DNA from: Candidatus Saccharimonadota bacterium
GTDB taxonomy: Bacteria > Patescibacteriota > Saccharimonadia > Saccharimonadales > Saccharimonadaceae
NCBI GenBank assembly: GCA_017406775.1
Contig: JAFQXV010000005.1
Location: 1-35,700 of the forward strand
Direction of reading: 5' to 3'
DNA length: 35,700 nucleotides
Shown here: positions 21,922 to 22,068 of the stretch, piece by piece
Position numbering within the stretch: position 1 is the stretch's first letter
Layout of the letters: each line of letters starts with the position of its first letter
Made by a program: the position numbers and the translations under genes
Notes under the pieces: generated by a model
Database searches by the model: none
Seen by the model: only the letters and a program-made list of their open reading frames with translations
Told to the model about the DNA's origin: nothing

Positions 21922-21944
21922 GAAAAACGGCCTTTCGGCCGTTT
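21922..21944 (-). terminator. Intrinsic terminator of the candidate ncRNA
   Basis: AAACGGCC-GAAA-GGCCGTTT, a GNRA-type tetraloop stem followed by T's on the minus strand. Confidence 0.85.
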
Positions 21945-22068
21945 CCCCGCTGTTACGCGCCCACCCTTGGGGCACATTGGTTTGTTTTAATCCGCTGTTT
22001 TTGTTTTTAATGTAAGTCTCCACACTCCACTAAATCATCAGTGGAACCCCTGTGAAGCGTACCAGCTT
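21922..22068 (-). ncRNA. Candidate structured non-coding RNA of about 147 nt, unidentified
   Basis: A full promoter upstream and a perfect terminator downstream frame this stretch. Close to the 5' end GCTGGTACGC (22066-22057) pairs with GCGTAACAGC (21958-21949) over 10 positions with one mismatch, closing the molecule. Inside are a 5' hairpin (CTTCACA/TGTGGAG with inner TCCACT/AGTGGA), an A-rich unpaired stretch, and a 3' hairpin (GTGCCC/GGGCGC). GGGG in the first and CCCC in the second could form a pseudoknot. The size would allow a 6S-like RNA, but I do not recognise the sequence. No convincing small ORF with a Shine-Dalgarno was found. Confidence 0.6.

Follow-up and report, generated by a model that had tools for sequence, protein, structure and literature searches.

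The window, by which we mean the whole 35,700-nucleotide stretch of DNA that was analysed, carries two plus-strand genes around the locus described here. One is obg, which matches Pfam GTP1_OBG, starts at 22138 and has its own promoter; the other, at 21273-21863, ends in its own terminator hairpin at about 21868-21905. Between them, the minus strand contains an RNA gene whose transcription heads away from obg, toward the 3' end of the 21273-21863 gene (Table 1). An earlier note, made from the letters alone, had proposed at this place a coherent free-standing structured RNA gene of about 147 nt with a TTGACA-17-TAATAT promoter and a GAAA-loop terminator, and both signals are present on the minus strand. 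The predicted fold of the minus strand reached -55.4 kcal/mol, compared with -37.4 kcal/mol (sd 3.8) for shuffled sequences, and none of 200 shuffles was as good (z = -4.75); the plus strand of the same locus gave z = -3.3. The gene is present once in the 720-kb genome.

Table 1. Positions of the RNA gene and its parts in the window
Feature	Position	Strand	Basis or remark
Whole RNA gene, promoter to terminator	22103 to 21922	minus	single free-standing unit
Promoter: TTGACA 22103-22098, 17-nt spacer, TAATAT 22080-22075	22075..22103	minus	sequence
RNA, about 147 nt (5' end near 22068), with core 22068-21949 followed by terminator	21922..22068	minus	z -4.75 and homologs
P1 5' strand GCUGGUACGC	22057..22066	minus	pairs with 21958-21949; covariation
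J5, internal-loop 5' side, UUCACA	22051..22056	minus	1-9 nt, variable in other homologs
P2 5' strand GGGGU	22046..22050	minus	pairs with 21973-21969; covariation and partner permutation
Extra hairpin UCCACU...AGUGGA in apical loop	22026..22045	minus	own genus and close relatives only; predicted fold
UGUGGAG, P4 partner of CUUCACA around P2 5' strand	22018..22024	minus	confined to own family; pseudoknotted or alternative pairing
A-rich apical loop AAAAACAAAAACA ... UUAAAACAAAC	21980..22008	minus	motif conservation, predicted unpaired
P2 3' strand GCCCC	21969..21973	minus	covariation with GGGGU
J3, internal-loop 3' side, AAGGGUGGGC; signature GGUGGG(C)	21959..21968	minus	conserved in homologs
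P1 3' strand GCGUAACAGC	21949..21958	minus	covariation with GCUGGUACGC
Intrinsic terminator AAACGGCC-GAAA-GGCCGTTTTT	21944-21923	minus	sequence

The gene at 21273-21863 forms a row of adjoining paralogues with those at 19293-19892 and 19909-20319, which is interrupted by trmD (20360-21109, minus strand). The three paralogues carry repeats of the YdcK beta-solenoid type, and PF18836 was matched in both of those that were scanned. At 15931-19209 the window encodes a 1092-aa putative surface protein without Pfam matches, in which a Hint/intein-like stretch (CIIEGTLIALADGTSIPIEQV...IIANNIIT) was recognized by eye.

When 198 genomes of the window's family were searched at the DNA level, strong copies appeared within the genus, and beyond it a 3' core was conserved. 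All of the 69 homologous copies extracted from this search for comparison share one plan, and in many genera the core is reduced to 76-91 nt because the extra hairpins of the apical loop are absent there; core length across homologs is 74-152 nt, with a median of 90 nt. A covariance model (R1) recovered the RNA, almost always as one copy, from about 96% of the family's high-quality genomes and gave weak full-length matches in many further families of the order Saccharimonadales. From these weak matches we read out homologs of other families (f14 and others), in which the letters differ (UCGUGCGC...GCGGCG...A-rich...CGCCGC-n-GGGUGGGC-GCGCACGA) and the architecture is identical, and used them to build a second model (R2). 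At E<=0.1, R2 matched 241 of the 295 genomes of the class, and in other families the E-values, which are rough owing to the short Infernal calibration, went down to 1e-21; R2 contains some sequences of the window's own family, so that its scores there are not independent. By these two models the RNA was detected in most other families of Saccharimonadales, with weak or missing matches in families f11, f15, f17, f18, and f24. A few near-complete genomes had no match (e.g. G292, G310, G330, G345), possibly because of assembly gaps; many of the genomes are MAGs, in which a missing match may have this cause. As judged from these sequence comparisons, a single-copy RNA is near-universal in the order.

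In the other orders of the class (f31, f34) a convincing homolog was not found, the matches there being at chance level. In the phylum outside the class, R2 matched about 25 of some 340 genomes at E 5e-4 to 0.1, which is chance level, as was the case for R1. Scanning GTDB contigs for the 3'-end pattern returned at least 116 stretches, and among the matches listed the titles were almost all Saccharibacteria. No phage-borne copy was seen among IMG/VR contigs, none of which had the exact pattern. Three RNA-bearing contigs (L173, L188, L192) are titled Variovorax or Nomurabacteria; these are most likely mislabelled bins with Saccharibacteria DNA.

The RNA has a rod architecture: a P1 helix of about 10 bp, an asymmetric internal loop and a P2 helix of 4-10 bp follow one another, and the rod ends in an A-rich apical loop (AAAACAAAAA). 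P1 corresponds to the paired 5' and 3' ends that the earlier note had seen, and it covaries across families (UACGC/GCGUA, UGCGC/GCGCA, GAA/UUC, and GCUG to UCGU/ACGA). P2 is likewise kept with different letters, as GGGG/CCCC, GGGGUAC/GUGCCCC, AGGG/CCCU, GCGGCG/CGCCGC, CGGGUUU/AAACCCG, CUUGCGAC/GUCGCAAG, and UAUAGCGGC/GCCGCUAUA. When the best P2 helix was scored in 105 sequences, pairing with the own partner gave 15.6 and pairing with permuted partners 13.5 (sd 0.25; 0/300 permutations as good). The alignment of other families (A3) had 94.4% of its cells paired; of its 14 pairs, 8 had changed at both positions, compared with 2.2 in shuffles. Its covariation score was 0.147 versus 0.075 in shuffles (0/500), and slid controls were far lower; the own-family alignment (A1) scored 0.092 versus 0.052 (0/500). 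At the level of these alignments, the P1 and P2 helices are proven through compensatory change. Relatives lacking the helix pairing had been named beforehand as an argument against the gene; instead, the pairing is kept in them.

The same P2 pairs bear on the GGGG/CCCC contact, which the earlier note had taken for a possible pseudoknot. Pairs such as GCGGCG/CGCCGC and AGGG/CCCU indicate that the contact is a nested helix closing the A-rich loop. The helix is therefore real, but it is not a general pseudoknot, as P2 lies inside P1 in the order-wide consensus; pseudoknotting or competition, through a further hairpin around GGGG, is confined to the window's own family. The extra apical hairpin, as read from the alignments, varies in its letters and keeps its pairing in L002-L034.

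Two single-strand motifs accompany the helices. GGUGGG is present in 105 of 105 homologs and GGUGGGC in 104, while the helices on either side vary. GGUGGG is predicted to be only about 40% unpaired, and its description as an exposed loop is thus uncertain. The A-rich middle, already noticed in the letters, proved to be the apical loop; it has the motif AAA[C/U]AAA in 104 of 105 homologs and a predicted mean unpaired probability of 0.85-0.87.

Promoter and terminator signals accompany the RNA in its relatives. A sigma70-like match of at least 9/12 occurs upstream of the core in 77% of 104 homologous loci, compared with 7% of random windows; in 86 of the 104, 8-10 nt separate the end of the -10 element from the core, and the spacer is mostly 17 nt. 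The core is followed by a terminator-like hairpin with a T-run in 90% of these loci versus 22% of random windows, and the letters of the terminator are not conserved. Neighbouring genes and their orientation differ between genera and families. The divergent arrangement with obg holds in the window, but outside the own genus obg is a neighbour in only some close relatives, so that the conservation next to obg that we looked for in other Saccharibacteria is a local one. A glycine-rich RRM_1 gene (Pfam RRM_1, E 2e-24) lies divergently upstream in 42 of 185 loci (L042, L043, L017, L037, L039, L124, and 36 others), which belong to several sublineages and many genera; this adjacency is confined to the window's family. 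At these loci the downstream neighbour is often tRNA-Ala(GGC). Other families have other neighbours (CorA-like, tRNA-Ala), and f14 has other genes again. Since the positions of promoter and terminator are conserved and the neighbours change, the RNA probably acts in trans, and the arrangement is that expected of a trans-acting RNA gene rather than a leader. The absence of a downstream cis target, which had been claimed for the window, agrees with the terminator after the core, the variable neighbours and the direction of transcription. A small mRNA or peptide gene was rejected: the spacing between CCCC and GGUGGGC changes by 1-2 nt across homologs, which breaks any frame and thus excludes a conserved one, and the conservation follows the helices.

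When the whole window was searched with Rfam 15, only a tRNA was found, and the RNA locus had no credible match even at E up to 10. The Infernal check against 6S, tmRNA, SRP, and other Rfam models that had been suggested for the locus thus gave no match, nor did any Rfam 15 family match the RNA at 20 homologous loci. Sub-threshold cmscan matches to GcvB, rimP, and Thr_leader near the locus were attributed to the neighbouring plus-strand terminator or to chance, and the sole YrlA match (L125) lies over tRNA genes. tmRNA was discarded, as ARAGORN found none in 36 homologous loci and there was no Rfam match. With 6S and SRP RNA also unsupported (see below), a new class is the reading of the earlier note that survives, and on the comparative sequence evidence we consider it highly probable that the RNA is a real new class of structured RNA gene. 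The novelty lies in the RNA class, for which no known family has the same motifs or a match; its biochemical mode may prove familiar.

No paper describing such an RNA was found among the open-access papers searched, and the main text of a structured-RNA survey of human microbiomes does not mention TM7 or Saccharibacteria. The raiA motif RNA/ModT of Bacillota and Actinomycetota is likewise a free-standing, highly conserved, trans-acting structured RNA found by comparative genomics, for which initial evidence of a protein association is reported (PMC11706538). ModT also has expression and deletion data. The Saccharimonadales RNA differs in belonging to another lineage, in having no Rfam similarity and in being known from sequence alone; the two are set apart here by lineage and Rfam comparison. 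Scaffolds of the Y RNA/YrlA type have a terminal stem, a conserved internal loop, a large apical loop, and an RNA-binding protein as partner. The layout of the Saccharimonadales RNA, for which a protein partner is proposed below, is similar, and we treat this as a lead only; unlike a member of that group, the RNA has no Rfam match.

To our knowledge, few free-standing RNAs extend through an entire order, and those that do nearly always have central roles (RNase P, tmRNA, 6S, SRP, raiA/ModT). The hosts of the present RNA are a large order of tiny epibiotic or parasitic bacteria, the Saccharibacteria, whose genomes of about 720 kb have lost many other things, SRP apparently among them, and have retained an RNA unknown to Rfam. 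The best explanation overall, to which we give about even confidence, is a new class of trans-acting structured RNA working in a ribonucleoprotein (RNP). In this particle, the A-rich loop of the RNA part would offer a binding site to a protein that recognizes single-stranded RNA. The foremost candidate partner is the small glycine-rich RRM protein, which many genera of the family encode next to the RNA in divergent orientation, and the GGUGGGC loop may be an active or recognition surface touching a protein or a partner RNA. An RNP with the RRM protein is ranked first because the A-rich loop is predicted to be single-stranded and the RRM gene is adjacent. Taken by itself, this particular mechanism is a tentative proposal, and the adjacency could be mere inherited synteny. 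It is similarly tentative that the RNA is a housekeeping component of a lineage-specific RNP, possibly with the RRM protein, which would do a core job in apparently SRP-less cells. As Saccharibacteria grow in culture together with their hosts, expression, partners, and essentiality of the RNA are directly testable, and the two covariance models suffice for its annotation.

We place second, after the RNP, a base-pairing regulatory RNA in which P1 and P2 would merely present GGUGGGC as a seed for C-rich targets (mRNAs or other RNAs). The seed is indeed invariant between changing helices, and a possible target is at hand, because CCCACCU in the CACCCACCU block of a separate 6S-like RNA can pair with GGGUGGG in 18 of 18 sequences. 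This anti-6S pairing was rejected in spite of the striking complementarity: in 5 genomes, co-folding of the two RNAs brought a gain of 0.0 kcal/mol and the duplex energies were no better than those of shuffles. The 6S motif is also kept in the other orders (f31, f34), where a convincing homolog of the RNA was not found, and thus the motif and the RNA did not appear together. On coding strands, CCCACC is not specially avoided in comparison with words of the same composition. Taken together, a base-pairing function appears less likely than the RNP, which is preferred.

A free-standing ligand-sensing or conformational switch is less probable still. Such a switch would have two alternative partners for the P1 5' strand, the 3' end (P1) and a strand after P2 (P4); in a second alternative, CCC would pair with GGGG or GGG. 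Within the window's family, a strand downstream of P2 is able to pair with the P1 5' strand or with J5, and this P4-type pairing covaries (10.1 versus 9.0 for permuted partners, sd 0.23, 0/500); the UGUGGAG partner listed in Table 1 lay outside the tested segment, and its pairing was read by eye. However, no P4-type covariation was observed in the other families (107/500 permutations), which indicates that P4 is a family-specific elaboration and rules out a switch as the function common to the class.

It is very improbable that the RNA is a cis element, that is, a leader or processing unit for the gene downstream, which would be obg in the own genus and tRNA-Ala in many others. A tRNA-Ala(GGC) does lie just downstream in many loci of the family, but in 90% of loci the terminator-like site stands between the core and what follows, the neighbours and their orientation change among genera and families, and in the window the RNA is transcribed away from obg.

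Twenty genomes of the order seem to be without a classical SRP. The Ffh M domain (PF02978) was detected in 0 of 20 relatives and in 14 of 14 controls, and none of the 20 had an Rfam SRP RNA above the cut-off, with positive controls. What these genomes do contain is a universal housekeeping RNA of comparable size, the RNA described here, and it could be thought to replace SRP RNA in a targeting particle, the more so as the bacterial small SRP RNA (RF00169) is also hairpin-like and occurs once per genome. We regard this replacement as very doubtful, because the domain-IV motif (a GGAA-type loop with a symmetric loop) was not found in the RNA alignments, RF00169 gave no match, and the protein domain that is the usual partner is itself absent; the absence of SRP does not by itself indicate this RNA. 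SRP RNA as such was rejected on the same RF00169 and M-domain results.

Like 6S RNA (RF00013), the RNA is small, is encoded by a gene with a promoter of its own, and has paired ends and an internal loop, and the Rfam 6S model misses the window's family at the curated cut-off, but a divergent 6S that binds RNA polymerase, as the earlier note had considered, is extremely improbable, since the RNA has a core of only about 90 nt and no covariance-model match, the 5' side of its internal loop (1-9 nt) leaves no promoter-like open bubble, and the same genome encodes a separate 6S-like RNA. Even with relaxed E-values, the Rfam 6S model matched neither the locus nor any of 20 homologous loci. It scored above the cut-off in other orders of the class; within the order, several genomes had sub-threshold matches, which lay elsewhere than the RNA.

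A 6S covariance model specific to the class (R3) was built and searched in 39 relatives, and it found one separate 6S-like RNA in 36 of them, including the window genome (G000:C11:16712-16809, minus strand; locus L296). There, TATAAT lies directly upstream and the closing stem is GCCCUGCUAAC.../...GGUUAGCGGGGC. Its flanks are conserved, with a site-2-protease-like gene on one side and a gene on the other whose translation, by eye, resembles a NUDIX-RNase H fusion. The 6S-like RNAs of Saccharimonadia, which also occur at L297-L301, L281-L288, and L072, have invariant GGGA and CACCCACCU blocks, and the own genus keeps ACCCACCU. At L296 and L299-L301, the gene directly 3' of the 6S-like RNA starts with AAGGUGGG-C-AUG. 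This AAGGUGGG is complementary to CCCACCUU of the 6S-like RNA, suggesting a possible effect, in cis or in trans, on that gene.
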